Shown here piece by piece: positions 16,771 through 60,960 of a stretch of 64,000 nt of DNA. The stretch is taken from positions 13,899,962-13,963,961 of the forward strand of contig NC_067121.1 in NCBI RefSeq assembly GCF_021347895.1, in the 5' to 3' direction. A program made the translations under genes and the position numbers. Source of the stretch: Acanthochromis polyacanthus (lineage: Eukaryota; Chordata; Actinopteri; Pomacentridae). The number at the start of each line of letters is the position of its first letter. Within the stretch, counting starts at the first letter, position 1. The notes beneath the pieces are model-generated. The model saw only the letters and a list, made by a program, of their open reading frames with translations. It was not told the DNA's origin and ran no database searches.

Positions 16771-16876
16771 GTGAGTATGTCTGCTGTAATTATAAATTGT
16801 TAACTTCAGGTGATTACATTTGTTTTTTATTGTCTATGCTGATTTTTTTTCTCTCTTGTTTGTCGTTCACCAGTGT

Positions 16877-19723
16877 ATGTGGCAGTGTAAACTGTGCTTA
16901 GTGGCAGTTGCAGGAAGATTGGCATTATTGAACCACTACAAATTGAAGCATCCACACCTTGGGCGTACCAGCCGTTATCCATGTACGTTTTTAGAGTGCC
17001 CTTGCACATTTAAAACATGGAATGCATTACATATTCATCACTCTCGGGATCATTCCACAAATTATAAAGCAGTAAAGGCACTATCTGTATTTAAGTGTCA
17101 CATTTGCTCGTGTAAGAATTTGGGGAATGAAAGAGAGTACTTTGCTCACATAAATGCTCATTTAAAGAAGAATGAAAAAGTGACTTGCATGTTTGATGGT
17201 TGTGATTTTCATACAAGTGTTTATGGAACCTTTAGGTCACACAAAAGTCGTAGACACGCATCTCATTCTTTGACTGATTTTAAACCCGGTATTGTGACAA
17301 CAAATGCACCTCTGCCTTTTGAACTTTTACCCACTGATGGCCAGGAAGATGAGTGTGTGGAGAGCGACACTGTAGAGTCAGCTAATCCCGAGGTCCTCTC
17401 AAGTGCAATTGAGAAGCAACTTGCAGCAGCCTTACTCAAGTTGGAGTATCTTGTTCATGTGCCAGGTACGGCTGTAGATGATTTTTTATATGAGCTTAAT
17501 TATTTAAGTTCAGCATCTGTGCCACTTTCAAAAGCTATAGTTGCTGATATCTTAAAGCGACTTAACTTTCAGGTTGAGGACTCGGTAGTTGCTAATATCA
17601 TTTCTGCAGTGTATACAACCAATCCAATATCAAAGGCTATTGAAAAGGGAGGGCCACTTTCCAGTTCATATCAGCGTAAAAAATACTACAGGGATTGCTT
17701 CAGTGTTGTGGAACCTGTGACTTTTATCCTTGATGGTAAAAAGCGCAGAACCTTTCAATATGTCCCAATTTTAAAGTCACTGCAGCAGGTCTTAAGTAGA
17801 AAAGGTATTCTTGACAAACTCATAGAAAATCATAAAGGAACAACAAGCCTTGAAAGAGACCCATCTTATGAATACAGGTCATTTAAAGACGGTAATCATT
17901 TTCAACAAAACAAGTTTTTGAATAATGATGAGTTAAGAATATCAGTATGTCTGTATGTTGATGATTTTGAAACTTGTAATCCCCTAGGCACCTCTAGAAA
18001 AAAGCACAAGCTTTGTGCTGTTTATTGGTTGCTCTCGAACCTACCTCCAGGCTGTCATTCCTCTTTATCCTCCATTTATCTTGCTGTGCTTTGTAAGAGT
18101 GATGATGTCAAAAACTACAGTTTTGATAATGTTTTGGAACCTCTCTTAACAGACCTAAAAACCTTGGAGGACCATGGTGTGTATGTTCCGCTGTTAGGTA
18201 CGTCTTTAAAAGGTACAGTGCATAGTGTTGTTGCTGATAATTTAGGAGCACACAGTATTGCTGGCTTCATTGAGAGTTTTTCTGGAGATTACTTCTGTCG
18301 TTTTTGCACAGCGAGAAGTTGTGAAATCAGTTCTCATTGTGTTGCATCTGGTGTTTTTAATTTGAGGACAAAAGAAGAACATGCAGAACATGTGCAAATA
18401 GCTGTTGAGAACGTCACACATCACTTGGCTGTAAAACGAGAGTGTGCTCTCACCAAGAACCTGTCACACTTTAATGTTGTGACTGGATATCCCCCTGATA
18501 TTGCTCATGACATATTTGAGGGAATTGTGCCATTTGAATTGGCGTACTGCCTGAATTTTTTGATAGCAAAGAAATTTTTTACATTAGATGAGCTAAACAA
18601 AGCTATATTGTCATTCCCATACAAATGGTCTGACAAGACCAACAAGCCTCATGCTGTCCCTAAGAGTTTGTCCAGTCGGAAGTCCATTGGAGGCAACGCC
18701 CATGAAAATTGGAGCTTGCTTAGGTTCCTCCCATTTTTAATTGGGTCTTGTGTTCCACAAAATGAGCCAGCATGGGTTGTGTTGCTGGATTTGAAAGACA
18801 TTACTGAACTGGTTGTGGCCCCGGTGCATACTGATGAGTCCATCTCATACCTTGAAAGTAAGATAGTTGAACACAGACAGAGGTTCCAAGAGCTGTTTCC
18901 TACTGTGAGACTTCTGCCAAAGCACCACTTCCTTGAGCACTATCCTCGGTTGATTCGTTGTTTTGGCCCTTTATTGTCTGTCTGGACAATGCGCTTTGAA
19001 GCCAAACATAAATATTTTAAGCAGATAGTGAAACATACTAGTTGCTTCAAAAACTTACCTTTGACTTTGGCATCAAAGCATCAGTTTATGATTGCTTTCC
19101 ACATCAGTTCACCATCTTATGGTAAACCTTGCCTTGATGTACCATGTGTGTCCACAGTTCCAGTTGATTTATTGAAAGATGAGGTGGCTCGGGCTATTCA
19201 TTTAAAATATCCCAACACTGATGAAGTAAATCTTGCAAAAAATGCAACATATTGGGGTATTGCCTACAGCAAGGGCATGATAGTAGCACATGGATCGGCA
19301 TGTGGATTACCAGAGTTTGCTGAAATTATCCAGATGTGCATCATCGATGGGAACTTGTTTGTTATAGTGAGAGTGCTGTGTGCTTGGTATATTGAACACT
19401 ACAGAGCCTTTGAGCTAAGGTTGTCTCCTGCAAGAGAAGTCAAGCTATTAGCACTAAGTGAACTGACTGATGCCTATCCATTAGCTGCCTACATGGTTGG
19501 ATCCAGCCGAATGGTAACTTTAAAAAGGCACATCCACATTAAAGGTTGGTTACTAAATGTCCTAGCTTTGTTTATTCATAACGCATTTTGCGTGTTTTGG
19601 CTGTACATCCTAAAAAGTTCTCAGTTTTTTCCCCCACTGCATTCTTTCATAATTTTTATTAATTTTTATGTGTTTACTTTTGATGATCTAATGCACAGTG
19701 ACTTTCCATCTTTCACTCTATAA
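16877..19723 (+). CDS. EnSpm/CACTA-like transposase with N-terminal C2H2 fingers
   Basis: An acceptor (gttcaccag) at 16873 precedes the ATG at 16877, giving MWQCKLCLVAVAGRL and about 948 residues. Four C2H2 fingers occupy roughly residues 4-145 (CKLC, CTFLECPC, CHIC, CMFDGC cores, each with paired His). Conserved blocks follow: VVADNLGAHSIAGFIESFSG, then CRFC, then PPDIAHDIFEGIVPFELAYC, and near the end LPKHHFLEHYPRLIRCFGPL and SVWTMRFEAKHKYFKQIVKH. The Asp residues in the DNLGAHS and DIAHDIFEG blocks and the Glu in MRFEAKH are the likely DDE triad by analogy with CACTA transposases. A weak donor after HIHIK at 19544 could splice out the hydrophobic tail (HSFIIFINFYVF), which reads like intron. 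No internal stop. Confidence 0.75.
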   Translation: MWQCKLCLVAVAGRLALLNHYKLKHPHLGRTSRYPCTFLECPCTFKTWNALHIHHSRDHSTNYKAVKALSVFKCHICSCKNLGNEREYFAHINAHLKKNEKVTCMFDGCDFHTSVYGTFRSHKSRRHASHSLTDFKPGIVTTNAPLPFELLPTDGQEDECVESDTVESANPEVLSSAIEKQLAAALLKLEYLVHVPGTAVDDFLYELNYLSSASVPLSKAIVADILKRLNFQVEDSVVANIISAVYTTNPISKAIEKGGPLSSSYQRKKYYRDCFSVVEPVTFILDGKKRRTFQYVPILKSLQQVLSRKGILDKLIENHKGTTSLERDPSYEYRSFKDGNHFQQNKFLNNDELRISVCLYVDDFETCNPLGTSRKKHKLCAVYWLLSNLPPGCHSSLSSIYLAVLCKSDDVKNYSFDNVLEPLLTDLKTLEDHGVYVPLLGTSLKGTVHSVVADNLGAHSIAGFIESFSGDYFCRFCTARSCEISSHCVASGVFNLRTKEEHAEHVQIAVENVTHHLAVKRECALTKNLSHFNVVTGYPPDIAHDIFEGIVPFELAYCLNFLIAKKFFTLDELNKAILSFPYKWSDKTNKPHAVPKSLSSRKSIGGNAHENWSLLRFLPFLIGSCVPQNEPAWVVLLDLKDITELVVAPVHTDESISYLESKIVEHRQRFQELFPTVRLLPKHHFLEHYPRLIRCFGPLLSVWTMRFEAKHKYFKQIVKHTSCFKNLPLTLASKHQFMIAFHISSPSYGKPCLDVPCVSTVPVDLLKDEVARAIHLKYPNTDEVNLAKNATYWGIAYSKGMIVAHGSACGLPEFAEIIQMCIIDGNLFVIVRVLCAWYIEHYRAFELRLSPAREVKLLALSELTDAYPLAAYMVGSSRMVTLKRHIHIKGWLLNVLALFIHNAFCVFWLYILKSSQFFPPLHSFIIFINFYVFTFDDLMHSDFPSFTL

Positions 19724-19869
19724 ATTCTTGTGGCATGTTAGTCTGTCCTATTTCTCTCTTGGGCCTCTTAAAGTTGCTGAGTGGTTAGTTTTACTGTCTA
19801 AATGCATTTTTAACTACTCGAAAAAAAGTAACTTTTATTCATCCTCTTGACAGATTGAAACCTGTGGTC

Positions 19870-22779
19870 ATGGCGGCTCTTTTGAAAGTCATCCTTGGAG
19901 ACAACAACAGTCAACGCTTGACTTTCCCAGATGGACTTCCAACATCTGTCAGTGAACTTGTTGATATTGTGCAGAGACAGTGTGCTATTCAGACAAACTT
20001 CAGGCTTCAGTTCATGGATCCCCTATTTAACAATGAGTTCATGAACCTCACTTCAATGGATGAAGTGACAGATCGTGGAACAATCAGAGTAATCTATATG
20101 ACAGGCATCTTAACCCCGCAGCGCGTAGAGGTCCAGATTTCTTCAGGAAGTGCTTGTAACTATAGTTTTCTGGAAGAAAGCTCATCAGTGTCTAGTGGTG
20201 GTGTAGATACTGACATTCTGTCTTCACCGGAATCAGACGCATCCACCTCTTCAACCTCCAGGACATTTTGGCCTAGCACTTTCAGTGTTCCACAGTTTGG
20301 CTTTGATGCAGAGTTAAAACTTGAAAGAGGCAATGCAGCATTCAAAGAGAATGGCGTAGTGCTTATCCCAGATCTTAAACTCAAGTCAAACATTTTAGAG
20401 GGTCTGATTCAAGAAATTGTCAAATACAAAGTTTATGTCACAGACAGAGAGTTTGACATGGTTGGTGAGGCACTCCTCTCCAAACACCCTTGTCTAACAG
20501 AGAGGGGCTCAGTGACAGGATATGCTGGTTGGAAGGCAAGCTTAAAGAATAAACTTGCGATTTACCGTACCCATTTGAGAAAACTGGGATGTCCTGAGGT
20601 TTTGGTGAACTCTGTTAAGCACAAGCCTGAGGGTAAATCAAGTGCTGCCTCTGCCATCAAAAGACCAAGACGTTCTGAAGTGAACTACTGCCCCCCTTAT
20701 CCCACTGGAGAATCAGATCAGAGTCTGGAGGGTCTGAGAGTGGAACTCCTATCAGATGTGAAGAAGCGGAACAACAGGGAGGCAGTGAGAAGGAAAATGG
20801 ACCAGACCTTCGCACACAGGAGGTATGAAGTGGTTCGAGACAAACCAATGGTTGAAGATTTCAAGAACAGATGGCCAGCCCTCTTCGATGTAACTGAGGT
20901 ACGTCACACCTTAATTTACACAGCCAGTCAGCAAAATTGTCCACTTTGGCCCATTGCTAGATGTAAAAAAAATGATTAGTCTTTGGTTTTGACTAGTATG
21001 CGCTAAACATAACACTTCAAAGAAAAGACTGATCCTAGAAATCAGTTTGATTTAAATGTATTTTTTCTTTAAAAAAAAGAAACCTTTAAGCCAGCTGCAA
21101 AAATTATGTTCCTGACTTTTAAATACAATATGATGAAATTTAAAGATTTTGGTTAGATTTTTTTTTTAAACAAAATGGTTCTCATTCAGATTCATCCTAT
21201 AGTTATGTGGGTAAGTCTGCTTCAAGTTTAGGTTGACACAGGATTAACTTCATCCACATTTGTTTTTATAATGGAGCAGCAAACATGCTGCATGACTCTT
21301 GTATTAAAGGCATGCCCCCTTTGATACCCTGTTAATGCTCTAACTTTGACTTTTCAAACATGCACGGCACCACATGCCAGTGAAAATAAGGTCAGTTTGC
21401 ATTCAAAATTGTCTCATAACAATAAATGAAGTTAATTTGTAACATATTCACTTTTACTTGTGGGTGAACTGAGGAATTATTTTGTTGTTCAAAGCTCATG
21501 AATTTCTCTGCACACCTTTGTTCTGATTATTTGTTGAACACATAAAGTGTGCACAGATACAGCTGTGCACTATTAAGTTGGGCCACTGAAGGATACTTGC
21601 AAAACAATATTTCAATGGTAATATGACATGCTTTTCTTTAATATGTCTCTCTTTTACTGTTCTTATTTTTAAAACAGATAAATTTAGAGTTCAAACGCAT
21701 CACCACCATACCGCTACAGTCAAGGTTTTTATCTCGGATAGACGTGCTGTCCGGCAAACTCCTCAGACTGTTTGAGCGAAGAGGTGGACAGATGGGGAGA
21801 GTGCTCAAAGATATTGTGGCACCCATGGCTCAGGTAAGAAACAAATACAGCCATTATGCATTATCAATTTTAATTCAGTGTGTGATACTTTTGAAACATA
21901 ACTTGGTGATCTTGTTGCCTTTGGCCAGGATGACGATGTTGACCTCGGTCGAGGTTGTATCATCAAAGGACTGTGTGTGTACCTCAATGAGGAACCAGGA
22001 AACTTAGTCAAAGAATATGTGGTGAGTATTTAAGTGTTATAATGGTTTGTTTGTTTTATGAGGTCACAGGTTCAGAAATATATTTATGTAAATTGTAGTC
22101 ACTTGAGAATGTGTTCATCCTCTCATGGATTTTTCACCTGGTTGTCCAACAGATTTTTTTTTTATTCATTTGTGCTTTCCTCCTCATCAGCAGCACCTGT
22201 CAGCTCACCTTCACTTTCTTTAAATAGTCAATCAATTAAATACCAAACCAAAAAAGGCCACCTGCTGGTCTGATGGGCACAAAACAAACAAAAACCAAAA
22301 CAAATTAATTGCTCATAGAATTACTAGTGTAGATTGATGAGGCAAAATTATATAGCTGATGTTAGCATAAGGCTATAACATGACAGGGTGAAAAATCCTA
22401 CAAGGGATGTACACTTCTTGAGGATTGTCCAGGGCTATGTTGAACCTGATTTTTGACAATATGTGTTTCTAAGGGCGCAGACGAAACCAATGAAAGATCC
22501 ATCGAGGAGACCACTGTTGGCATTTACGTCCTGAAAGCAGACTGCAACTCAAACCCAGATGACATCGGCATAGTGATTGAAGGACAGGTGGTCTTGCAGG
22601 AACTGGACAACTTTCCGTTAGCTGTTGCCATGTTGTTTGGCTTGATTTACACACTGAACCTCGACTACCCTCGTGACCTCAAATATACATTTGAGGTGCT
22701 CCAAAAAATCATCATGGAGCTGGAGGGCACCACTCTTTCCAAAAAAGCGCAAGTGCTCAAGAACAGACTCTGTGAATGA
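19870..22779 (+). CDS. EnSpm-borne second protein ('SAMD3-like' of fish annotations)
   Basis: Four exons join in frame: 19870-20898, 21678-21833, 21929-22021 and 22474-22779, 527 residues, with donors gtacgt, gtaaga, gtgagt and clean acceptors. The start is MAALLKVILGDNNSQRLTFP, after an acceptor at 19853. Residues 1-80 look like a ubiquitin/PB1-type fold (LLKVILGD...TSVSELVDIVQ...FRLQFMDPLFN...GTIRVIYM); a low-complexity Ser/Thr stretch follows, then YAGWKASLKNKLAIYRTHLR and a C-terminal domain with DIGIVIEGQVVLQELDNF. Fish genomes hold many such proteins annotated as sterile alpha motif domain-containing 3-like. Its place inside CACTG ends suggests it is a transposon accessory protein rather than a host gene. 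Role unknown. Confidence 0.7.
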
Positions 22780-26120: not shown

Positions 26121-29100
26121 ATGATTATGGCTCAGGTTATGAATATTAAAATAATATCCTGGAACTGTAGAGGTTTAAATAAAGTCACTAAAGTTAAACA
26201 AGTGTTGACAAGATTAAAACGTCTGAATGCAAATATAGTACTTTTACAAGAAACCCATCTTTTATCCTCTAATGTTTCTGTGGTTGGTAAAAGATGGCCA
26301 GGTTCTGTTTTGTCCGCATCATTCAGCAGCTCCCATGCCAGAGGAACAATGACTCTTACTCATAAAAATATTCCATTTGAAACTGCTAACGTAATTAGTG
26401 ACAAAGCAGGCAGGTATTTAATTGTACAAGGTACTCTCTTGTCAACCAAACTTAACTTAGTTAACATATATGGCCCAAATGAGGATAACCCTGATTTCTT
26501 TAAGGACTTGTTTTTAAAGCTCTCTACACTGGATGGTCAAAATATAATTGGAGGCGATTTTAATGTTGTCTTAGACCATACTAAGGACAGGTCATCCACC
26601 TCTTCTCCGACACATCTACAAGCCAAAAAGTGCATTATGCACTTTATGTCAGAGTTAAACTTGTTAGAGATTTGGAGAGAACTGAAACCAGATGACATCT
26701 CATATTCTTGTTATTCCGCCACACATAAGACCTATTCCAGAATAGACTACTTTTTGGTATCCGCATCAATAAGACACAAAGTTGGAGATTGTTCTTATGA
26801 AAGCATTCTAATCTCAGATCATGCTCCGATCTGCTTGATTTATCTCGACTCAGCAATCACTGCAAGTCGACCACGCTGGTGCTTCTCTATTAGATGGCTG
26901 CAAAATTCAGCTTTTGTTGAATATGTAAACTCTCAAATAGACTTGTACTTTGATACTAATACTTCAGAAACTTCAGCTGCAATAAGGTGGGAGGGTTTTA
27001 AAGCATTTTTAAGAGGACAAGTAATAAGCTTTACCACCACAAAATCTAAAAAAGCACAACTAGTACTTAAGCAATTGGTAGCCAAAATTAAAGTTTTAGA
27101 AAAAAAGGTCTTTGTGGAAAAAAACACTCTCTGTGAACAGGAATTACTAGTCTGTAAGGCTCAATATAATGAACTAACAGCAGAGAAAGTTGCAGACAGT
27201 CTAAGAAGAGTAAATCAATCATTTTATGACCAAGGGGAGAAGCCCGGGAGGCTTCTAGCGTGACGTCTTAAGCAGCTTCAAACAGACAGGACAATTAACT
27301 CTATAAGAAACGATAAAGGTGAATTGGTATTAGATCCTCAAGGAATAAATACAACATTTTGTGAATTTTATCAAAACTTGTATAGTTCTTAGTGCCAAAA
27401 TTCTGATAGTTTGCAAAATTTGTTTCTGAATAATCTTGATATTCCATTGATTCCAGAAGAGCTTAAAGCACAACTTAATGCAAATTTAACAAGTAATGAT
27501 GTACTAGAAGCTATAGACTCAATGAAATTAGGAACAGCAGAAGGCCCAGATGGCTTACCATTGGACTTCTATAAAAAATTTAAGCATAAAATTCTAAAGC
27601 CATTATTGGAAATGTTTACTGAATCATTTGAGATAGGAACACTACCACCCAGTTTGAGGGCAGCATTGATAACACTGATACCTAAGCCAGATAAACCTAG
27701 GGACATGTGTCAGTCCTATCGTCCAATCTTCCTTTTGAATGCAGATATAAAAATTCTCTATAAAATTTTAGCCCAAAGACTGGAGAAATGTCTTCCCTCG
27801 GTAGTTAATACTGATCAAAACGGATTCATTAAACATAGGCAGGGATTACACAATGTTAGAAGACTAATTAACATTTTATTTGAAAAGCGTAATGCCCCCG
27901 ATACTGCAATATTATCATTAGACGCAGAGAAGGCCTTCGATTGGGTCGAGTGGCCATATTTGTTTGAAATTCTGTCTCGTTTTGGTTGTGGTGAAACATT
28001 CTGTGCTTGGGTAAAGGTGCTCTACTCACAACCAACAACTGAAATTCTAACAAACAATATTATTTCTAATTCTTTTAACATTTTTAGAGGGACTCGCCAA
28101 GGCTGTCCTCTCTCGCCGCTCCTATTTACATTGGCCATAGAACCTTTTGCCATCGCAGTAAGAGCGCATAGAAACATTACTGGTATTACATTGGGCAAAA
28201 TAGATAACAGAATTGCATTATATGCTGATGATGTTGTTCTCTTTTTAACTAAATTAAAACACTCAATACCAGCTTTGCTTGATATTATAAACAATTTTGG
28301 GTGCTTTTCAGGATATAAAATTAATAATTCTAAGTCATGTTTGATGCTCCTTAATGAGACTGAGAGAACAACACCTTCAGACATCCTTTCAGCATTTAAG
28401 CTTTCAAATTCACTCACCTATTTGGGAATTAAGATTGTACCGGACGTCAATAAAATAGCAGAAATAAATTATGACCCTATTGTTCAAACTATTACAGAGT
28501 CTATAGATAGATGGTCGACTTTACCAGTATCTTTGATCGGACGCATTAACATTGTAAAAATGAATATACTTCCCAAGCTTCTTTATTTATTTCAAAATGT
28601 CCCTCTATCAGTACCACCAGATCTCTTTCCAAAACTGAAGAAAATAATTACAAACTTTCTTTGGAATAATCGCCGCCACAGACTTTGTTTAACCTTACTT
28701 TACCTACCTTTTGATTGAGGTGGGCTCAAAGCTCCTAATTTTGAATGGTATTACTGGGCAGCTCAGTTGAGAATGATGATGTTCTATTTTTCTGATGACA
28801 AACCACCTGATTGGGTAGAAATAGAGTCTTCTTCACTTCATATTGAGCTGCCAATAAGTGTATACTTATATTCGGCACCAATCAAAGAGCTTAGGAGAAG
28901 AACTAAAAACCCTATTGTTATAAATATGGTCAATATATGGTATAAAGTACATACAGTTCTAAGACAACAACTCTCTCTTTCGCGTTTTAGCCCCATATGG
29001 GGTAATGATAAATTTATATCAGTTTTATCAGATCCGGGATTTCGCCTGTGGGTAGCAAAAGGGCTTGGTAAGGTTGATGACTTATTCTGTAATGGTGTAA

Positions 29101-29938
29101 TGATGTCATTTGAACAGATAAAAGATAAATACAATATACCCAATTCTCATTTCTTCAAATATTTCCGGTGAGGAATTTTATTTTTCCCTCACAAAACAAT
29201 AAACTAACATTACCCCCCTTCTCAATAATTGAAAAAGCTATCTTTGACTATCCTTACACCAAAAAGCATATTTCTTATTTGTATAATTTGTTCATTGTTT
29301 CATCTATGGAGTCCTCAGTTAACAGGTTAAATGCATGGAAAGAAGATTTTAAGGAGGACATTTCTCTGGAGGAATGGAAAGCTGTTTGCCTAAAAGCTCA
29401 TACCCAGACTGTAAATACAAGGCTGCAACTCTTACAGGTCAATTGGATAATGCGAACATATATATCGCCCATTAAACGGCACTCCTTTGACAATAATAAC
29501 TCAGATATATGTGTAAAATGTCACAAAGAAAAGGGGACCTTGTTCCACTGTATGTGGGAATGTGATGAGGTACAGAAGTTCTGGAAGAGTATCGAAGTTG
29601 CCCTGAATGCAATGTTAAATGTAAATATTCAGAAAAACCCCAAGTTATTTATATTGGGAATATACCCAAAAAGGTGTTCTATAAATAGCTATTCTAAGGT
29701 TTTAGCAAATGTTTGTTTGCTTCACGCTAGAAGATTAATTGCACTATTTTGGAAAAAGATGGACTGTCCAACACTGAGTCACTGGATAAGAGAAATGTCA
29801 TCATCTTTGGCGATGGAAAAAATAAAATACTTTCTTAAAGGTAAAGAAGAGCAATTTGATCAGATCTGGAGACCTTTTATCACCTACTTGGAGAGAACTG
29901 ATCTTTCGAATACATTAAAGGAAAGTAAAGAGCCATAA
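26121..29938 (+). pseudogene. L1 ORF2 (endonuclease-reverse transcriptase), few breaks
   Basis: Residues 1-230 are an APE endonuclease: IKIISWNCRGLNK, VLLQETHLL, VNIYGPN, GGDFNVVLD, SRIDYFLVS and SDHAPI. The reverse transcriptase lies in 27411-28718: GPDGLPLDFYKKF, SLDAEKAFDWVEW, GTRQGCPLSPLLF and the YADDVVLF box. The tail carries CVKCHKEKGTLFHCMWECDE. In-frame stops are TGA at 27261-27263 (LLA-stop-RLKQLQ), TAG at 27391-27393 and TGA at 28716-28718; two look like TGG-to-TGA changes. A frame change near 29168 precedes the last 256 residues. Otherwise colinear with an intact ORF2. Confidence 0.85.
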
Positions 29939-32966: not shown

Positions 32967-34402
32967 TACATTCATAGAATAAGTGATCTGTAGTTTCAGT
33001 GTGTTCATTACAAAAGGAGCAGTTATTATTCTCAAAACCAAATCGTTTGCTTAAAAAAATCAGCTGAGGGATAAATTCTATTCATAATTTTGAAATGATT
33101 TTCTTTCATTTTGGGGGCAATAGGAAATTTGAAGAATTTAGATCTTAAAATTTGCGCATCTTTTTTGGAGAAAAAATTTAGAATTGAGTTTCTCGATGAT
33201 GGGTTTGGGAAAATTACTGTATTGAATATATTTCTAAGAACAAAGTTGGTAAGTTTGGAATCATTTAGCCTGTAACCATTCAGCATGAGCAATGGGAGAC
33301 TTGCCTGAATTTTGTTTTTATGCAAGTCTGATGCCATTAACAAGATTGCCTGAGGTATTGCTTTAATTACTTGGTTATATTGGCGTTTGTCAGTTATATT
33401 AAATTTGGTACTGAAATTTTCAAAAGTTAGCATTTTTCCAGAGCAGTCCAGTAAATGCATCACAGACCAGATTCCTTTATCAAACCAATTTTGTTGAAAT
33501 ATAGATTTGTGTTTATGTAGAACATATCTACAGTTCCAAAATGGGGTCATATGGGGACTGAAATTGTGCTTGTAAATTAATCTCCAGTATAATAAAGTCT
33601 GCTGATGAAATGAAGAAATTTTGATTGGGAGCTTATTTAGGTCATAATCGCATTTAAGTAGGAACTCGATTCCTCCTAATTTTGTGAAAATTTCGCAAAA
33701 CGCAAAACTTTGCCGAGATCTCACCACGTCGCGTACGCGATTACGTCACATACGTGCGCCGGTGCTTTGGTTTGCCGGTGTCGTGCCAAAGTAGTTACCC
33801 CCGACAGAAAATGTATCCCCTGCCGCGGGAGCGCGCATGCATTCGGAAGGGTGGAGTTATAATTCCGTGTTTAGATATCAGCGTAGTTTATTAATAAAAC
33901 AAAACTTGGATTGTTACGATCATGATTTGATTGTCAAACATGTTTGGTAATGCAGCATGTGACATTTCTGTCTAAATAAATGCTTTTGCTATACATGGCG
34001 TGTTGCTCAGTTAATAGTATTCATCGCGCTGCCTAACAATGTCTTTTCCTTCTCCCTTTTGTAATAAAGTGTAATGTTGCTACTCGATCACCCTGCTAAC
34101 TAAACGTAGGCTCAATACCTTCTGGGTGGGAACTAGATTCAAACGCTCTGTAATTCAATCTTTAGAGCAATCTGTCCAAAGTCTGATACAGTAAAATCAA
34201 CACCACTGTGAGCATTTTATCACACTGCCAGGCTCAATTCCACCAGGGTATCTTATCTTCAGATATTGGCGTTTGTTTGTTTGTTTTTTACTTTTGTTTT
34301 TAATTCCCCCTCTGTTGACCATCAGAACTTCAGAGCATTTATTCAGAAATTCTCAACACAGACAAATGACAATAAAGGAGGATCTACCAGAACATGTTAT
34401 GA

Positions 34403-36045
34403 GGGGAATACAGATTATATCAACCTCATTGTCTGCACCTGCCAGAAAATGTATCCCCCCTCTATATTACTCAGGTGATGTGCTAACATCCTGTGGTTTA
34501 TTCTGCAGACATTTCTCATCATGCTCAGCAAAACTTGTGAATTAGGACTAGTTTCTTTAATCACAGCTAAAGTTATAGGGGGATACAGATTATTTCAGCG
34601 TCAATGTCTGCACCTGCCAGAAAATGTATCCCCCTCTATATTACTCAGGTGATGTGCTAACATCCTGTGGTTTATTCTGCAGACATTTCTCATCATGCTC
34701 AGCAAAACTTGTGAATTAGGACTAGTTTCTTTAATCACAGCTAAAGTTATAGGGGGATACAGATTATTTCAGCGTCAATGTCTGCACCTGCCAGAAAATG
34801 TATCCCCCTCTATATTACTCAGGTGATGTGCTAACATCCTGTGGTTTATTCTGCAGACATTTCTCATCATGCTCAGCAAAACTTGTGAATTAGGACTAGT
34901 TTCTTTAATCACAGCTAAAGTTATAGGGGGATACAGATTATTTCAGCGTCAATGTCTGCACCTGCCAGAAAATGTATCCCCCTCTATATTACTCAGGTGA
35001 TGTGCTAACATCCTGTGGTTTATTCTGCAGACATTTCTCATCATGCTCAGCAAAACTTGTGAATTAGGACTAGTTTCTTTAATCACAGCTAAAGTTATAG
35101 GGGGATACAGATTATTTCAGCGTCAATGTCTGCACCTGCCAGAAAATGTATCCCCCTCTATATTACTCAGGTGATGTGCTAACATCCTGTGGTTTATTCT
35201 GCAGACATTTCTCATCATGCTCAGCAAAACTTGTGAATTAGGACTAGTTTCTTTAATCACAGCTAAAGTTATAGGGGGATACAGATTATTTCAGCGTCAA
35301 TGTCTGCACCTGCCAGAAAATGTATCCCCCTCTATATTACTCAGGTGATGTGCTAACATCCTGTGGTTTATTCTGCAGACATTTCTCATCATGCTCAGCA
35401 AAACTTGTGAATTAGGACTAGTTTCTTTAATCACAGCTAAAGTTATAGGGGGATACAGATTATTTCAGCGTCAATGTCTGCACCTGCCAGAAAATGTATC
35501 CCCCTCTATATTACTCAGGTGATGTGCTAACATCCTGTGGTTTATTCTGCAGACATTTCTCATCATGCTCAGCAAAACTTGTGAATTAGGACTAGTTTCT
35601 TTAATCACAGCTAAAGTTATAGAGGGATACAGATTATTTCAGCGTCAATGTCTGCACCTGCCAGAAAATGTATCCCCCTCTATATTACTCAGGTGATGTG
35701 CTAACATCCTGTGGTTTATTCTGCAGACATTTCTCATCATGCTCAGCAAAACTTGTGAATTAGGACTAGTTTCTTTAATCACAGCTAAAGTTATAGGGGG
35801 ATACAGATTATTTCAGCGTCAATGTCTGCACCTGCCAGAAAATGTATCCCCCTCTATATTACTCAGGTGATGTGCTAACATCCTGTGGTTTATTCTGCAG
35901 ACATTTCTCATCATGCTCAGCAAAACTTGTGAATTAGGAGTAGTTTCTTTAATCACAGCTAAAGTTATAGAGGGATACAGATTATTTCAGCGTCAATGTC
36001 TGCACCTGCCAGAAAATGTATCCCCCTCTATATTACTCAGGTGAT
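34403..36045. repeat. 174-bp tandem array, left Ginger1 arm
   Basis: Unit starts fall at 34577, 34751, 34925, 35099, 35273, 35447, 35621, 35795 and 35969, exactly 174 bp apart. The last copy is partial and the first copy (from about 34403) is diverged. Units differ at only a few positions (AGGGGG against AGAGGG at 35621 and 35969). Each unit contains CAGAAAATGTATCCCC, which also occurs near the element terminus. Confidence 0.95.
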
Positions 36046-36382
36046 TTTACCAACATTTCAGCCTGATTTTTTTCTTATTGCAAAATTTGTTTTACAAAAT
36101 GCTCAATTGATAAAACATTTTTTTAAAAAGTAAGTATTGTTACAGAAAAAAATTCATCTTGAAGAAAAAGGTTTAATACTTAAATATTATACAGTTATAA
36201 CAACTATGTCTCTTAAAAGTACTGAACTTACCAATAACTTATATAAATAATAACACAATCAGTTTTAGAAAAAAAGATATATACAGCTGAAGATAAATAA
36301 CAAAAATAAGAAAGAGAACTAACATTTTAATCCAACTATTTAACGATGACAACTCTATACACTATACATTGAGCTCAGGACT

Positions 36383-38468
36383 TTAGCAAGCCATGCAAAC
36401 AAAGGCGTCTTTTGCCGGTGGGCCTTGAAGGCACATTTGGTGGAACCACCGCAGACAAACATCACACTGTATCTGAAAGACATAGAATTCAGGTTTTAAA
36501 AAATGTCTTTTAGGAAGCTGTACATTGTTATTGTTGCAATCAATTCAACAATTATTACTTCAAGTGGAGCGAAGGCAGAAATAAAACAATGGCCCTCAGT
36601 ATAACAGAAGAATCTAACATAAGCATTAAAGACAATTCCCACTATCAAAACAGTATTCCATTTCAGATTTAGAGATAAATGTTACTGGATTGCTCAAGTT
36701 ACCCAGTTCACATCAGACTCATGTTCCTTTTCCCCACAGAAGCGGCATCTGTCTGTTAGGTCATCTGTTAAAAAAAGAGGACAGAAAAAATAAGAGCATG
36801 TGTAATATTGTCATGCATGAAAATATAATTAATATTTAGGTTACGTGAGAGTATTTACTATAACTGTAACATTTTTACAGGATTTTTATGGACAAGTCTA
36901 TGAAATACTAAAATATGTCCTACCAGTTTCCAGGAGAAGAGAAACAGCAATTTCCTGCCTGTATCTGTTTATGGCATCATTTGTGGCAGGAAAATTTGCG
37001 TCTCTCTTTTGCAGGAGACATTCTGCAAACTGAAAAAGAGATTTCAACATAACCTTAAGCTATGCATCTTAGTAATTACGAGCTTACATGTCACCATATA
37101 ATGATATTAATCTGCTGTAACTTAATAACTTCTGAGTTTTAGACATCTCAAAAAAGCATAACATTATTTGTCTTGGGTAAAAAATAAAAAAAAATAACAA
37201 ATGGACAGTCGTATTACAATACAGAAATTTGAGGATGATGACATTGCTCTGCAAAGCAAACATACCTTGAGTGCAAAGACTCCACATGACGTACTGCCAC
37301 ACTGTTTTGTGTGTGGTACAGTGTCACATCTCCACCTTGAAAAATTGCAGCCTTGTTTTCGCATGAAAGCCCTACATAAATAAAAGAGTAATTTCTAAAT
37401 TGATATAACATTAATGTGTGCCAATTTTGTAGCGATAGTTGACATGCCTGTTACCATGGTTTTAAAACAAGTATCCTCACCTTGTTGTGTCCAAACATTT
37501 GTTGATGGCTTCCTTCGACTCGCCCAGCGGATCCAAGTACAAGGACTTTTTTTCTTGTGGGTAGATGACCTAAAAATATTTTTCCCATGAAAAAAAATTA
37601 CTGAGACATTACTTCTTCACCTACTCTATTTTATACCAGGCACTGCAGTAGTATATTTACTCTTTTTATACTATGGTTTATTTATAAAATTTCTTTACCA
37701 CAAGTGTCCAGTGATGATGCTCATTTAGAACTCCAAGAATAATCTCATACTCCAGGGGTTTAATCTAAAATTGAATGGAATAGTAAAATGGAATAATTTA
37801 ATACAAATCTGAATTGCACATTAAAAAATAATTAGAAATTAGATTCCTACAACGAAATTGTTTCAAGCACAATATCTCTTGACATATGTAAAATAAAGAT
37901 TTACAATAGATGTATTTGAAATATTGAAAGCAATAGGTTTCATTTACCTTTAAAATTTTAACTAAATTGAAATCCGAGGGAAATCCATAACATTCATCAT
38001 ACCAATGCTTACCTTGAGCCTTTGAGATCTTCTTTGCCACATTGCAGTCATAGCAAACGAATCAATGAATGCTGCTTTTGCAGGATTGTGGCGATTTCGT
38101 TCACGCACTATGATTGCCAAATATGCATTGATCACCTGTAAGAAAAATTAAACCACAAAACATAATACTTTTTTACCATACAAATACACTGACTGTTTTC
38201 AAGCTGACTTGTAAAGCTGTAAAACATATTTATATAGCAAAAAATAAAGTTAAATAATATTGTACCTCGCTTTCCAACTCCATGTCAGGACCAAGTCTGT
38301 AAATGTCCCAGTAATTCAACTTGTATGCCCCTATTTTGGACAGGAGGACATGAACATCTTTTCCTGCCCAAGCATCCTTAACATCTGTCAAAATAACAAA
38401 AGAAGATAATTATTAAGAAAATTAAATGAGGGGAAAGAAGCAAGTGATATATATTTTGCCATCTTTGC

Positions 38469-38529
<61 letters not shown>

Positions 38530-41500
38530 AAAGATAAGAAGAAAGAAATAGCGATAGGGAGAAAACAGAGACAGAGAGAGGACATACACATAGAAAATCT
38601 TACATTTCTCTGCAAGAGCTTGTGTATAGTTTGGTGTTTCTGCTGCTGGCTGTAATGGCAGTATGGGATTTGGGTGGACTGCGGTTGGTGGGACAGCTGC
38701 TGGGGCTGTAGCTACTGGGGCTGTAGTTGCCGGGGCTGTAGTTGCTGGGGCTGTTTCTGTGGCTGTAGTCGCTGGGGTTGTTTGTAGAGCTGCAGTTGCT
38801 GGGGTTGTTTCTAGAGCTGCAGTTGCTGGGGTTGTTTGTAGAGCTGCAGTTGCTGGGGTTGTTTGTAGAGCTGCAGTTGCTGGGGTTGTTTCTAGAGCTG
38901 CAGTTGCTGGGGTTGTTTCTCGAGCTGCAGTTGCTGGGGTTGTTTCTAGAGCTGCAGTTGCTGGGGTTGTTTGTAGAGCTGCAGTTGCTGGGGTTGTTTG
39001 TAGAGCTGCAGTTGCTGGGGTTGTTTGTAGAGCTGCAGTTGCTGGGGTTGTTTCTAGAGCTGCAGTTGCTGGGGTTGTTTCTCGAGCTGCAGTTGCTGGG
39101 GTTGTTTGTAGAGCTGCAGTTGCTGGGGCTGTAGCTGCTGCTGGGACTGTAGTTGCTGGGGCTGTTGTTTGTAGAGCTGCAGTTGCTGGGGCTGTAGCTG
39201 CTGCTGGGACTGTAGTTGCTGGGGCTGTTGGTTTTAACAGGGATGATGATGCCTGTTGCACCACTGATGCTGATTTTTTGGTCATACTCCGGTGTGGAAC
39301 TCTGGCTGTGTCTTCAATGGTCAACTTTAGTTGGTCCATATTGATTTTGCAGAAGACTGTCCCTTTGTCATCCTGGAGATCTACACTTTTGTCAGTTATT
39401 GCCACAATAGTATAAGGGCCTAAAAAGCTGTGTTCCAATTTGCCCCCCTTTCTTTGTTGGCTCCTGATGTTCTGTCTCCAAACCCTGTCCCCAACTTTGA
39501 AGTTTAATAGTTTGGCTTTTGGCTTGACTTTTCCCCTTGTTTTTTCATGTCCTTTGTTTAGATTTTCTCTGACCAGCTCCAAGAGGTCCTGTTGCTGCCG
39601 AATGTCCTGCGACAAATCCTCCTGTCCCACTATGTCCTCCACAGAGTTGTCAACCTTTGAAGAAAAACAGATTATTTGATGTTTGTATCCAAATCTTTTT
39701 AGGGTTATACAGCCCACCACAGATGACTGCTAAATTTACTCTGTATATGCAATGATTGTAGATAAATATAATAATCCTTAGACAGTTGTCATGTAGATAT
39801 ATAAATCTTGGAAGCTGATAGGAAGACAGCGTGTCATAATGCAGTCTGATCTGTCAGTGTGTACAGAGAAAGAGTGTGAGAGAGAAAGATGGACAAATGG
39901 ACAGAGACAAATGCAGATTGATTATGTACTCAGACTGACATAGAGACAAATAGGTAGATCATAAACTGACCACATAGTGTTCTGGGACTTGTGAAGGGTA
40001 ACGCGCCTCTCTGCCAAACATCAAGAAATACGGTGAGTACTTGGTGGTCATCTGTTTTTTGGTTCTGAGACCAAACATCACTGCATCCAGATAATCATCC
40101 CAAGTATCTGGATGCTCACCGACCACTTTGCTGAGGGCTCTGAGAAAACAGATGATTTTAAAGCACTGATATTCATCACCATAGCAAAAAAATTAAACTG
40201 ACTTTGACTTTGTAATAATAATTCTCCATATGGCTTGGGAAGCCACACCCTAATACATGTATAAAAACATAATTTAAGTAACAGAGTTTGAAATGTTACA
40301 GTCTAATTTAACAGACACTCAAAGTGACATGGTTCAGGGATCTATGCAACACAAGCAAGGATCATATCAGAAGAGAACACCACAATAAGCCAGAAAGCTT
40401 TGAGTGTAAGTCAGATAGCATGCTATTGTCAACAGAAAATGCACTGATGCAAATTTAGAGTTATCAATTTATAACTAAAATGAAGAACTCACCTCTGGAT
40501 TGTGCCATTCATTTTTTCCACTAACCCATTTGTTTGAGGGTGATAGGGAGAGCAGAGGCTTCTCTTGATGTGAAGGATTTCACACACTTTTGAGTTGATC
40601 TAGAAGCACAAGTTTTTATTGACATTTTTGATATGACATTAATAACAGCATCCTGTCAAGAAATCAGTTCATACACATGGCTGTGTTACATAAACAGAAT
40701 GAATTAGCAACAAAATGAGGGGTTACCTGAATCAAATAATAATAGTTAAAATTATTGGTGACTAATATTTCAGAAAGACAAATTCTGCCAAGGATTTAAA
40801 TACTTACAGCATTGACGAATTCTGTCCCCTGGTCTGTTAAAATTCTTTTTGGTGATTCAAACTGATGGACAAACTTCATGATGCACTGTGCAACTTCTTT
40901 GGCTGTCTTTGAGGTCAGAGGGTAGGCCTGTGGCCATTTTGTGAAATAATCAATCATCACGCAGATGTATTGATGTCCATTCTTTGTCTCTGTCAGTTTG
41001 CCAATTAGATCCATCCCCACCAACTCAAAGGGCTGGTAAACCTTTTGTAGCAAAAACATTGTCAAGTTATATTTTTATTCAAAAAATTGCATTAATGCAT
41101 ACTGCCTTCTTTGTTGATATATAGAATAAGATTGAGGACTAACTACCTGTGGAAAAAAAATGCACTCAGAGCATCTTTTCTCTCATTGTCTTTATACTGA
41201 GAAAAATATTTCAGTGGTTTCTATTGATTTAAAAACATTTTGGCCTTCTTTGGCTGAACTCACCTTGATGGGAATGAACTCTGTGGGCATTTTAATGGCG
41301 TCACTGCTTGCCTGGCAAGCTGAACACTGGGAAACCTTATGATGACATATTATGGATGAGTAGTGGTTTTAAATAAGCACATGTACACGTAATACCATGA
41401 TAATGTTTTTTTCATGGAATTTGAGCAAAATAAAATAGGAGAAACTGTTTTTCAGGACCCCATTACATTGTAATTACGTGTGCTTTCAATTTAGGGCCGA

Positions 41501-42314
41501 CTTACCCACTTGTTGATGTCCACTGACATCCCTGGCCAATAAAACCTTTTGGAGATGGCATCTCGAGTTTTTGTCTGGCCACAGTGTGCCCCAGTGGGAC
41601 TTGCATGAAAATCAACAAAGATTTCATTGGCCTGATTAGCCCCACAGACCACCTTGGTTTTCAGGGCTTTTGCAGTACCCTTGTGTCGCCAATAATAAAG
41701 CTCCCCTCCTAAATGATGAGAGGAAAAGGAGCAGTATTTCAGACATTATTACTCTTAAATGCATGATACACACTGGATGGTATACGGTTTCATTAAAAAA
41801 AAGCCTCAATGTTAGTCTTACCGCGTAGATTACATAGGTGTTATCTTCCAAAACATACCAACAACTTTAAGATTCAAATATTATTTGTAAAATATTTAGG
41901 GCTGGACCCGAAGATCCGATAATCCGAATATTCAGTTCGTTCCTCCGTCCGTCATACAACCGCTCCCCCACCACCGTCGGACGTAATGGAATATTCGTCG
42001 TGAATTGAGCCCGAATACGCGGAGCCCAGAATGTGCGGGTCAGCCCGAAAAATATTATGAGACATAGAGTCACGTCTCATTTAATCATGACATAGCCTTC
42101 TAAAACTACTTCAGATATGGTTATAGACTATTGTATTTGTTACATGTTTATTCTGTCACATTTGCGAAATGGTTGTAACGTCATTGGTCTTACCTTCAAT
42201 GTCATAAAGATGAGACTTCCGTCGAAGTAAAAATTTGTCCCTTTTTGCGAAATCCGGAGGATACTCATTTTTAACTTTATATTCCAAAATTTGTTTGTAG
42301 TCCGTAGGATTCAT
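36383..42314 (-). CDS. Ginger1 transposase: integrase DDE + Ulp1 protease + PHD-like finger
   Basis: Fifteen exons (minus strand): 42314-42194, 41708-41506, 41335-41264, 41041-40808, 40599-40493, 40139-39971, 39654-38604, 38384-38266, 38135-38013, 37764-37699, 37569-37481, 37371-37266, 37029-36924, 36764-36703 and 36472-36383. All junctions are GT-AG and in phase; the sum is 2718 bases, 905 residues, with no internal stop. In order: N-terminal MNPTDYKQILEYKVKNEYPP; zinc-binding HHCC (FHASPTGAHCGQ...CSAC); integrase core with Asp in VGMDLIGKL, Asp in LTDQGTEF and Glu in GLVEKMNGT; GPY/F-like LGPYTIVAI; a nonapeptide repeat region; Ulp1/C48 catalytic His (NEHHHWTLV), Asp (LYLDPLGES), Gln and Cys (HTKQCGSTSCGVFALK); and Cys/His-rich RCRFCGEKEHE...IQCDVCLRWFH...CMAC. 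Ginger1 proteins are known to pair an integrase with OTU or Ulp1 proteases. Confidence 0.85.
38474..38527. repeat. (AC)n microsatellite in a Ginger1 intron
   Basis: About 54 bp of AC dinucleotides immediately downstream of exon 7 of the minus-strand transposase gene. Confidence 0.95.
38773..39235 (-). repeat. Coding minisatellite in the Ginger1 transposase
   Basis: About 13 copies of a 27-bp unit encode nine-residue repeats ATAALQTTP, with variants ALETT and ARETT. Next to it is a duplicated 54-bp unit encoding TAPATTVPAAATAPATAALQ. It forms a Thr/Ala/Pro-rich linker between the GPY/F-like region and the protease domain. The frame is kept throughout because all units are multiples of three. 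Antisense open frames here are shadows. Confidence 0.92.
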
Positions 42315-42436
42315 TGCTAGCTGACTTTAACAAAATCAAGGCTGCTGATACCAACGACACTGACACTGGACCTGTCCCAACATGCCGAAAGCTGACCTTT
42401 TTATTCTTCTTTTTTTTCGAAGGCTGACCTTGTGTA

Positions 42437-42483
42437 ATTTGCATAATTTGCATAATTAATTGAAGGAATGACGTGATCACGTG
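42437..42483 (-). promoter_or_regulatory. Putative Ginger1 promoter: two octamers and a CACGTG/CRE palindrome
   Basis: Two perfect octamer motifs ATTTGCAT lie at 42437-42444 and 42446-42453, nine bases apart. A near-palindromic TGACGTGATCACGTG (overlapping CRE-like and E-box motifs) lies at 42469-42483. They sit between the inner edge of the right arm and the transposase ATG at 42314. Octamers bind POU factors, including the early embryonic Pou5f family; function here is inferred. Confidence 0.5.
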
Positions 42484-42519
42484 TACTCTACCTATGTGTT
42501 CTCGTGTTTTGTAGCCTAT

Positions 42520-43295
42520 AGAGAGGGGATACATTTTCTGGCAGGTGCAGACATTGACGCTGAAATAATCTGTATCCCCCTATAACTTTAGCTGTGATTA
42601 AAGAAACTAGTCCTAATTCACAAGTTTTGCTGAGCATGATGAGAAATGTCTGCAGAATAAACCACAGGATGTTAGCACATCACCTGAGTAATATAGAGGG
42701 GGATACATTTTCTGGCAGGTGCAGACATTGACGCTGAAATAATCTGTATCCCCCTATAACTTTAGCTGTGATTAAAGAAACTAGTCCTAATTCACAAGTT
42801 TTGCTGAGCATGATGAGAAATGTCTGCAGAATAAACCACAGGATGTTAGCACATCACCTGAGTAATATAGAGGGGGATACATTTTCTGGCAGGTGCAGAC
42901 ATTGACGCTGAAATAATCTGTATCCCTCTATAACTTTAGCTGTGATTAAAGAAACTAGTCCTAATTCACAAGTTTTGCTGAGCATGATGAGAAATGTCTG
43001 CAGAATAAACCACAGGATGTTAGCACATCACCTGAGTAATATAGAGGGGGATACATTTTCTGGCAGGTGCAGACATTGACGCTGAAATAATCTGTATCCC
43101 CCTATAACTTTAGCTGTGATTAAAGAAACTAGTCCTAATTCACAAGTTTTGCTGAGCATGATGAGAAATGTCTGCAGAATAAACCACAGGATGTTAGCAC
43201 ATCACCTGAGTAATATAGAGGGGGGATACATTTTCTGGCAGGTGCAGACAATGAGGTTGATATAATCTGTATTCCCCTCATAACATGTTCTGGTA
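42520..43295. repeat. 174-bp tandem array, right Ginger1 arm (inverted)
   Basis: The same unit in reverse orientation: four full copies plus the diverged outer one (starts near 42522, 42697, 42870, 43044 and 43218). One copy has the AGAGGG variant, as in the left array. Together with 43296-43901 it forms the right inverted arm. Confidence 0.95.
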
Positions 43296-44349
43296 GATCC
43301 TCCTTTATTGTCATTTGTCTGTGTTGAGAATTTCTGAATAAATGCTCTGAAGTTCTGATGGTCAACAGAGGGGGAATTAAAAACAAAAGTAAAAAACAAA
43401 CAAACAAACGCCAATATCTGAAGATAAGATACCCTGGTGGAATTGAGCCTGGCAGTGTGATAAAATGCTCACAGTGGTGTTGATTTTACTGTATCAGACT
43501 TTGGACAGATTGCTCTAAAGATTGAATTACAGAGCGTTTGAATCTAGTTCCCACCCAGAAGGTATTGAGCCTACGTTTAGTTAGCAGGGTGATCGAGTAG
43601 CAACATTACACTTTATTACAAAAGGGAGAAGGAAAAGACATTGTTAGGCAGCGCGATGAATACTATTAACTGAGCAACACGCCATGTATAGCAAAAGCAT
43701 TTATTTAGACAGAAATGTCACATGCTGCATTACCAAACATGTTTGACAATCAAATCATGATCGTAACAATCCAAGTTTTGTTTTATTAATAAACTACGCT
43801 GATATCTAAACACGGAATTATAACTCCACCCTTCCGAATGCATGCGCGCTCCCGCGGCAGGGGATACATTTTCTGTCGGGGGTAACTACTTTGGCACGAC
43901 ACCTGCCGGTACAAGGAAGTAAACAAAGATGTGTGATTATTTCCATCCTTCGTACCTTCAAGCAATTCTGGCAGCTCTATGTACACTACAGGAGTCGTAC
44001 CAACAAACGTGCAGAATCTGTACAGATTCCATTCATTTACCGCGGCGTAGATCCGAAAAGGGAGATAGTACGCATGAGCGTAGACATGGCGGAGTTTTAT
44101 CACAGCGCCACCCAGCTGCCTGGCATGCATATCCAATCGAATTCCACACACTATAGAGTCACCGTATATACGCAGATTTCCTTCAAAACCGCTCGTCTAA
44201 ACGTGAAATGACAAGACGCCACTTTTGCGTTTTCTGTTAAGATGGTCCTCGTATAAACGTAGCCTGAGAAAATCTGTTTTTCCCCGTTTGTTTTTGCTTT
44301 TGTTCTGTATTTTCCTATCTTTCTTTTGTCAGTCTTCTCTCCCACACTC

Positions 44350-59875: not shown

Positions 59876-60960
59876 GTTGATGCTACAGGTACGGACCCGT
59901 ACCTGTAGCATCTGTACTACAGGTACGGACCCGTACCCGTAGCATCTGTACTAGAGGTACGGACCCGTTAAGGTCACTGAAGAGCTGGCGCCGGTTAACT
60001 ACTATTTGCTGCACATTACAGGCAGTTTATATGAATGACTTTGACGGCGAACATTGTATAATTTAACCAAAAATACACCGTCTCCTCTCACGCTTTAGAC
60101 ATTGCAGTTTTTACGCTTTTAGACGCCGTGTCTAAATTGTTTGAAGTCCAGCTCCTATTAATTAGTTTACCGCGTTCAGTGGTGGAAGCGGCTGACGAAC
60201 GCCATTGCAAATGTTCCCATTTAATTTCGGACGCTAATTTACAAGATAAAGTTAAGGATGTCGAATATGAAACAAACACTCGTGAATGGTGAGGACCAGC
60301 TCTTTAATTCGGCATGAATTTAAAAAAACAACAAAAACTCGATTTACTGTGATATTGTGAGATTTGTTTGTGGTTATGTAACTTAGCCATTCAACAGAGT
60401 CCGCTAACATTAAAGTGACTGACGTGCAGTGTCTGTGTTGACAGACGTAGAAAACACGTCAGGGTTTTGTTTAGGTTGTTAATATGTAATAGTCTGTCGC
60501 TACTTTTGAAGGTAAAAAAATACTTGTAGTTTGCTGACTGTTAGTTCCGCCATTTGTTTTGTTTGCTGTTTGTGCTTTATTAGAACAGGGTCACGTGAAT
60601 AAAAAGTTTTGCTATTTTTAATAGTAGTGCTGATTTCAACCCCCAAATCACTGTCCGTGAAAAAGTCAGATAATGATATTTATAAGACATTATGCATGAT
60701 AGAAAAGAGAACAGCAGATGACTGACATGACAGGCTCGGCACGCAGATTCACCTCGAATCACGGAAGCGCCTTCATCACTCGGATTACCAAGCCGGCTCA
60801 TTAATATTTATGTACGTCGGATTACCAGCCAATCACAAAGCGCGTTCATCAGCCGGCTCATTAATATTCATGTCCGTCTCATTAATATTTATGGTAAGGG
60901 AAAGTGCCGTATCCGTAGGCCACAGGCTACGGGTACGGGTCCGTATCTGTAGACACTACC
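59876..60960. mobile_element. TIR element with 10-bp TSD (Mutator-like?)
   Basis: TTTAAAAAAG flanks both sides exactly (59866-59875 and 60961-60970). Ends GTTGATGCTACAGGTACGG and, inward from the right, GGTAGTGTCTACAGATACGG, both followed by ACCCGTACC. The left end has three near-palindromic repeats of about 41 bp around GGTACGGACCCGTACC (59886-59970). Inside, CCGGCTCATTAATATT occurs twice with a third, shortened relative (60792-60892). A 9-10-bp duplication suggests Mutator, but no transposase is present. The LINE codons rejoin as PLLKKSNLDRLQ. Confidence 0.7.

Follow-up and report, generated by a model that had tools for sequence, protein, structure and literature searches.

Whether this fish genome harbours a DNA transposon of the Ginger1 group that moved in the recent past is the question raised by an element of about 10.1 kb lying in a 64,000-nucleotide stretch (the window, G000:C9:13899962-13963961) of a genome of 957 Mb in 81 contigs. 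The TGT of the element began at 33779 and its ACA ended at 43901, the bounds already given by a sequence-only reading of the same DNA; this copy is called C9. The element is very probably a recently mobile, autonomous-type Ginger1 DNA transposon, on the basis of an open 15-exon frame, near-perfect arms of 1.38 kb, insertion at CCGG and two further full copies elsewhere. The family moved recently; each single copy is only a candidate for competence.

Element, gene and protein

The element, its arms and its flanks were laid out as follows (window positions):

33779..43901, Ginger1 element with TGT...ACA termini, gene on the minus strand; copies C7 and C3 start and stop at the same bases
33779..35155, left terminal inverted repeat, ungapped part, ending within the tandem array (compared with 42525-43901)
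42525..43901, right terminal inverted repeat, ungapped part
34396..36045, subterminal 174-bp tandem repeats of the left arm, 9.5 units, with the 15-bp motif AGAAAATGTATCCCC
42517..43284, subterminal 174-bp tandem repeats of the right arm, mirror orientation, 4.4 units
33775..33778, left target-site copy, CCGG, directly before TGT
43902..43905, right target-site copy, CCTG instead of CCGG by comparison with empty sites

The inverted arms were complementary at 1,376 of 1,377 bases (33779-35155 against 42525-43901), with the sole mismatch at 34753. Their length of about 1,377 nt was outside the published Ginger1 range of about 40-270 bp, which consists of reported values (available for 13 of 16 table rows) and was not taken as a defining limit. 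The termini, TGTCG...CGACA, fitted the TGTNR pattern of Ginger1. The motif AGAAAATGTATCCCC also started at base 28 from each tip; tips included, the left arm contained 11 copies of it and the right arm 6 reversed ones, and a whole-window motif search found none outside the arms. By a count based on a longer motif, the 174-bp repeats numbered 10 + 5 in C9 and 3 + 3 in C7, so these arrays change quickly. The arms of C7 were 99.7% alike over 1,039 bp. The 174-bp repeats are putative transposase binding sites; neither they nor the long inverted arms had figured in the sequence-only reading.

The predicted gene comprised 15 exons and 14 GT-AG introns on the minus strand, giving 905 codons plus a stop in one open frame, and thereby agreed with the 15 exons and the 905-residue frame proposed earlier:

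42194..42314, minus, exon 1, start codon at 42314
41506..41708, minus, exon 2, H2C2 histidines H75 and H82
41264..41335, minus, exon 3, H2C2 cysteines C112 and C115
40808..41041, minus, exon 4, D143 and D202
40493..40599, minus, exon 5, E238
39971..40139, minus, exon 6
38604..39654, minus, exon 7, GPY motif (381-383) and low-complexity linker coded by a 27-bp minisatellite
38266..38384, minus, exon 8, start of the protease domain
38013..38135, minus, exon 9
37699..37764, minus, exon 10, catalytic H751
37481..37569, minus, exon 11, catalytic D768
37266..37371, minus, exon 12, Q808, catalytic C814 and the private Gly810
36924..37029, minus, exon 13
36703..36764, minus, exon 14, first half of the PHD-like finger
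36383..36472, minus, exon 15, second half of the PHD-like finger and stop codon

Exon 3 had a possible alternative acceptor nine bases inward, and relatives with VSQC favoured the acceptor used. Two fish relatives (P0002 and P0022) lacked exactly the 24 residues of this exon, a gap of the kind that exon skipping would leave; this supports the exon borders. In an alignment with ten fish proteins, the gaps of the window row outside the linker corresponded to insertions in one to three relatives. The coding minisatellite (27 bp; window 38698-39228) supplied the repeats of the linker, and its length varied among C9, C7 and C3 with the frame unbroken.

Integrase_H2C2 (1.5e-17), rve (1.3e-15) and Peptidase_C48 (1.3e-12) were all above their Pfam cut-offs. 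The catalytic residues named in the sequence-only reading were located at D143, D202 and E238 for the integrase, with 35 residues between the last two (DD35E), and at H751, D768, Q808 and C814 for the protease, as aligned to SENP. The integrase D, D and E were kept in the nine relatives with residues at those positions; H, Q and C of the protease were kept in all ten relatives and D768 in nine. The GPY motif occupied residues 381-383, with G381 and P382 invariant in the fish protein alignment. In the stretch upstream of the zinc finger, examined for the YPYY motif, YP occurred at residues 18-19, with aromatics later.

By sequence comparison with solved structures, the integrase core resembled the PFV and Ty3 integrases and the C-terminus resembled SENP1 and SENP2. 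For structure prediction, the fish relative P0005 stood in for the window protein (869 residues, 15 sequences). The model had a mean predicted local distance difference test score (pLDDT) of 60 and a predicted template-modelling score (pTM) of 0.38, and was confident mainly in the N-terminus, the GPY region and the C-terminal part; the DDE core was therefore poorly modelled. Its best matches were SENP1 and SENP2 (template-modelling score about 0.8 on the target), above NEDD8 proteases. Both the modelled fold and the similarity to SENP point to a substrate of the SUMO type rather than to NEDD8, and action of the protease on host SUMO or ubiquitin conjugates, as suggested earlier, is plausible on the same model.

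Resemblance of the core to Gypsy and retroviral integrases, together with database names of the kind 'gypsy retrotransposon integrase-like' for some relatives, would suit a remnant of a Gypsy long terminal repeat (LTR) retrotransposon or a host gene rather than a DNA transposon. The terminal repeats were inverted, not direct like those of Gypsy elements; the Pfam scan of the protein gave no reverse transcriptase or RNase H; and several copies had the same ends at different CCGG sites. In a tree of 34 core sequences, which left out the reference Hydra sequences, 11 labelled fish Ulp1/PHD rows and two unlabelled fish rows shared one branch (100/100), apart from nine reverse-transcriptase-bearing Gypsy rows and one unlabelled fish row on another (99/92). 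A Gypsy or host-gene origin is accordingly highly improbable. The two OTU-bearing proteins fell on the non-Gypsy side and did not form one group. The window protein paired with P0001 (94/85) among the fish Ulp1/PHD proteins, and the top matches in the protein search were long homologues from several teleosts. As judged from its sequence, the element is a Ginger1 grouping with teleost Ulp1/PHD-type transposases, the identification already proposed from its integrase, Ulp1 protease and PHD-like finger and one with which domains and tree agree.

Copies, age and selection

The genome was searched with the outer arm (best 40 of 85 candidates scored) and with the element body (best 40 of 101 candidates scored). 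At least three copies had all 15 exons and both ends: C9, C7:42856966-42865562 and C3:42615283-42632319, the last stretched over 17 kb. Their open frames comprised 905, 914 and 816 residues, respectively, and differed mostly in the repetitive linker. C9 and C7 differed by 8 substitutions in 6,471 bp aligned (about 0.12%) and by six insertions or deletions (four of 1 base, one of 6 and one of 27), and C7, like C3, occupied a site unrelated to that of C9. A search for such a near-identical copy had been proposed in the sequence-only reading, and C7 and C3 together exclude the objection, raised there, that the species might hold no other copy. Fish genomes accumulate some 5e-9 substitutions per site per year, at which rate the split of C9 and C7 would be of the order of 1e5 years old. 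Further complete end pairs were sought at L089-L092 and some other loci, and none was found; a terminus search at three mismatches gave counts at the level of the backwards control, and the places that it listed gave no new pair.

Several observations weigh against a recently mobile, autonomous-type element. The gene model is a prediction from the genomic sequence. The PHD-like finger, for which a profile search had been suggested along with those of the three domains detected above, remained below the Pfam cut-off (22.7 against 24 bits). The right target duplicate of C9 was inexact. Outside the linker, C9 and C7 differed by 4 non-synonymous and 0 synonymous changes, and C9 and C3 by 14 and 4 (ratio of non-synonymous to synonymous proportions, pN/pS, 0.92), so single copies were not visibly under purifying selection since their split; C3, by its substitutions, is drifting neutrally. 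At 221 near-invariant columns C9 had 6 departures, C7 5 and C3 11, five being common to all three. The only private departure of C9 at these columns was Gly810, four residues before the catalytic Cys, at a position with Asp in nine and Glu in one of ten relatives and with Asp in C7 and C3. This residue may, judging by the alignment, weaken the protease of the window copy. The description of the copy as apparently intact holds for the gene, which is complete and open, and needs qualifying at this residue beside the protease active site, acidic in all ten relatives.

A narrower doubt is that C9 is a dead or non-autonomous passenger, moved recently by transposase from elsewhere, for instance from C7. 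In favour of this are the Gly810 that only the window copy has in its protease loop, the lack of any departure of C7's own at the 221 columns, and the lack of synonymous excess between copies. Every integrase catalytic residue was nevertheless present in C9, five of its six departures were common to C7 and C3, the protease may be dispensable for movement, and C7 itself had two private changes near the catalytic Asp, outside the near-invariant columns. That C9 is a passenger is a realistic possibility, short of an even chance.

About 20 further Ginger1 copies were decayed, roughly 80% identical and without the DDE exons (L043-L051, L053-L057, L060, L062-L068). Decayed DDE-less copies occurred on C6 (0.2-1.8, 5.2-5.4 and 44.0-44.2 Mb), C22, C23, C28, C40, C64 and C65, with many near both ends of a 44.7-Mb chromosome. 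One of them (L043) was 98.3-99.3% identical to eight others over 4.7-5.3 kb. A domesticated protease family was considered for these copies and rejected, as two translated in pieces showed stops and frameshifts. Apparently they all derive from a single dead fossil that segmental duplications multiplied recently.

Target site and the unequal duplicate

C9 was inserted within a high-copy repeat (window 33695-33778 and 43902-44121; 559 candidates), almost identical between chromosomes around the joint. The C9 flanks, when joined, had 40 listed matches at 93-95% identity (the best 40 of 559 candidates), all without the element. Eighteen of the 40 were read across the joint. Neither the element nor the four additional bases were present in any of these; 15 were exactly TTTGCCGGCCGGTACA and three had one substitution. 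The filled site read TTTG CCGG/TGT...ACA/CCTG CCGGTACA, where slashes mark the element ends. From these paralogous empty sites, the target of C9 was CCGG, duplicated over 4 bp with T for G in the right copy. The TGT...ACA termini with a CCGG target claimed earlier were thus recovered, with CCGG on the left and CCTG followed by CCGG after ACA on the right. TGCC as the duplicated 4-mer, with GGTGT...ACACC ends, fitted the window copy alone and was rejected, the other copies and the empty sites favouring CCGG and TGT...ACA.

In C7, likewise, CCGG lay to the left and CCTG to the right. Among its 44 listed matches, two of which were its own flanks, 12 empty sites were read across the joint; the 4-mer was CCGG in nine of the 12, and position three was G in 11 and T in none. 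One further difference lay two bases past the duplicate of C7, whose nearest empty sites were only about 87% alike; it may reflect variation of the repeat copy that C7 occupies. C3 had CCGG at both ends. The six copies with both ends read comprised four with CCGG + CAGG, one with CTGG + CAGG and one with CCGG + CCGG; a seventh pair, on C17, located within a different repeat and flanked by CATG at either end, was not counted with them. The CAGG end was on the 5' side of the gene in C9 and C7 and on the 3' side in both C16 copies.

Fifty termini were read, of which 30 were left out of the end count as non-independent insertions (17 + 10 + 3 in three repeats). The remaining 20 ends were CCGG in 11, CAGG in 7 and CTGG in 2, and CCTG preceded TGT in none. 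These counts were made by eye; 54 termini were listed at ≤1 mismatch, and some of the 50 were outside that list. Flanks of the CAGG ends shared CAGG, ACAGG, GACAGG, GGACAGG or TGGACAGG in different copies, the pattern that would arise if carried flank were retained over varying lengths.

A 658-bp Ginger1 arm was captured between the 267-bp inverted repeats (GGTCCGTGTACTTT...) of another transposon and then spread with it (L017-L021, L023-L030, L032, L034, L036 and L084, the last with only its flank read); the capturing transposon had apparent 6-bp duplications. A second repeat with a shared-flank Ginger1 end was present at L037, L069, L071-L074, L079 and L081-L083, and a third at L031, L085 and L086, where the base before GG/TGT was C in two and A in one.

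In the proposed cycle, the transposase would bind the terminal motif and its 174-bp repeats and cleave at the TG/CA ends, which an integrase-type reaction would then join to CCGG. SUMO-like modifiers would be stripped by the protease, either from the transposase itself or from host proteins of repair or chromatin at the insertion; recognition of target chromatin may fall to the PHD-like finger.

The identical base was changed in two recent insertions, C9 and C7, at different sites, and random mutation at 0.12% divergence does not easily explain this shared change to CCTG. One tentative and rather unlikely account is that the excised end brings flanking bases with it and that these are copied into the duplicated site. 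Excised Ginger1 ends would keep several flanking bases on the 5' strand (...GGACAGG before TGT in the family of the window element). The carried bases would pair with the 4-base gap at a CCGG target and be kept rather than replaced by repair synthesis, the kept tract being longer where the target matches further. One mismatched base would stay, and replication would then give one CCGG end and one CAGG/CCTG end. Two results weigh against such carry-over. If ends were independent, with CAGG at seven of 20, at least five mixed pairs out of six would be expected in about 7% of cases; and the CCGG/CCGG of C3 would be expected only if repair had removed the mismatch.

The CCTG duplicate could instead have arisen by plain mutation, or as a by-product of gene conversion among terminal repeats, independently of the insertion mechanism. 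The GGACAGG/TGT flank was shared by 17 of the 50 termini through the terminal piece captured by the other transposon, a possible donor pool, and the usable copies with both ends read number only six. At 0.12%, however, a private change per 4-bp duplicate would be expected in about 0.25% of copies, and C9 and C7 share the changed base. Conversion would require a very short tract, the captured pieces being about 7% diverged and the C9 arms differing at 1 of 1,377 bases; the limit is under about 27 bp for most captured pieces, and L019 matches C9 somewhat further. Mutation or conversion as the whole explanation is possible, if somewhat doubtful, and gene conversion from captured ends, or a donor copy with such a flank, could explain part of the pattern. 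In 2010 the excision mechanism of the group was described as unknown; carry-over of flanking bases, if true, would supply a step of its excision and insertion, and could account for the strictness of the CCGG target. The one-base asymmetry at two independent insertions makes the question of Ginger1 excision and insertion addressable by sequencing.

Elsewhere in the window, LINE-like (long interspersed nuclear element) open frames were seen by eye at 26121-29938 (plus), 60953-61618 (plus) and 33032-33745 (minus). Two long adjacent open frames occupied 16814-19723 (969 aa) and 19789-20979 (396 aa) on the plus strand; the start of the 969-aa frame was zinc-finger-like by eye only.

Comparison with known systems

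In piggyBac, the flanking tetranucleotide travels with the excised ends. Its transposase is unrelated to that of the window element, and the analogy extends to carried flanking bases only. Tetranucleotide target specificity of piggyBac is described in a passage of PMC7351741.

Ginger1 traits, in the passages of Bao et al. (2010; PMC2836005) used here, are H2C2, DDE, GPY/F, YPYY and TGTNR ends, duplication of a 4-bp CCGG or CCGT target and an OTU or Ulp1 domain at the C-terminus; Ginger1-9_HM has a PHD finger as well. The Ginger proteases are there suggested to activate repair during or after transposition. The window element had an H2C2 and DDE core, GPY/F, a Ulp1 domain, TGTNR ends and a 4-bp CCGG target. 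Ginger2/Tdd elements are set apart by an RTATAY target and no GPY/F; here the target was CCGG and GPY was present.

Ginger in teleosts is already published, and the window element adds another member. A teleost genome table gives 6,053 Ginger copies in zebrafish and, in a column ambiguous in the excerpt, a second entry of 236 (PMC4746887, in part); the grayling repeat table, as excerpted, includes Ginger1 (PMC6505133), and Ginger relics are reported in alligator, turtle, coelacanth and frog in a portion of PMC9004415. With the zebrafish copies, the long teleost homologues and the tetrapod and coelacanth relics, the earlier expectation that such an element would be unusual in a vertebrate found no support. 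In those portions of the literature searched, subscription papers and Repbase excluded, no description of a full-length Ulp1-bearing Ginger1 from fish was found. Since at least three copies in this fish genome retain both termini and an uninterrupted 15-exon frame, and two of these are almost identical, the transposase, its SUMO-protease-like domain and the arrayed long arms can be put to the test in a vertebrate.

Among fish proteins, Oreochromis LOC109202383 (P0001) and Triplophysa LOC130424925 (P0005), both annotated as uncharacterised, had the same domain order as the window protein over most of its length, at 63% and 48% identity in the alignment, respectively. Hydra Ginger1-9_HM and other Ulp1-type Ginger1 elements, as far as the cited passages describe them, likewise combine H2C2, DDE, GPY/F and Ulp1 in one transposase; Ginger1-9_HM shares the PHD finger too, and the Hydra Ulp1-type elements share TGTNR termini and a 4-bp CCGG target. 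Unlike these Hydra elements, the window element had 174-bp arrays in its arms and a CCGG/CCTG duplicate. Elements in the table of the same source are 2,649-7,091 bp long, with arms of 44-270 bp and 0-4 introns (PMC2836005); the window element, with 10.1 kb, arms of 1.38 kb and 14 introns, lay above each of these ranges. The host genes GIN1 and GIN2 are reported as derived from Ginger1 transposases (PMC2836005, in part), as is Imagin in an excerpt of PMC12863088. In contrast to these domesticated genes, as so described, the window element had the arms, target duplication and near-identical copies of a mobile one.

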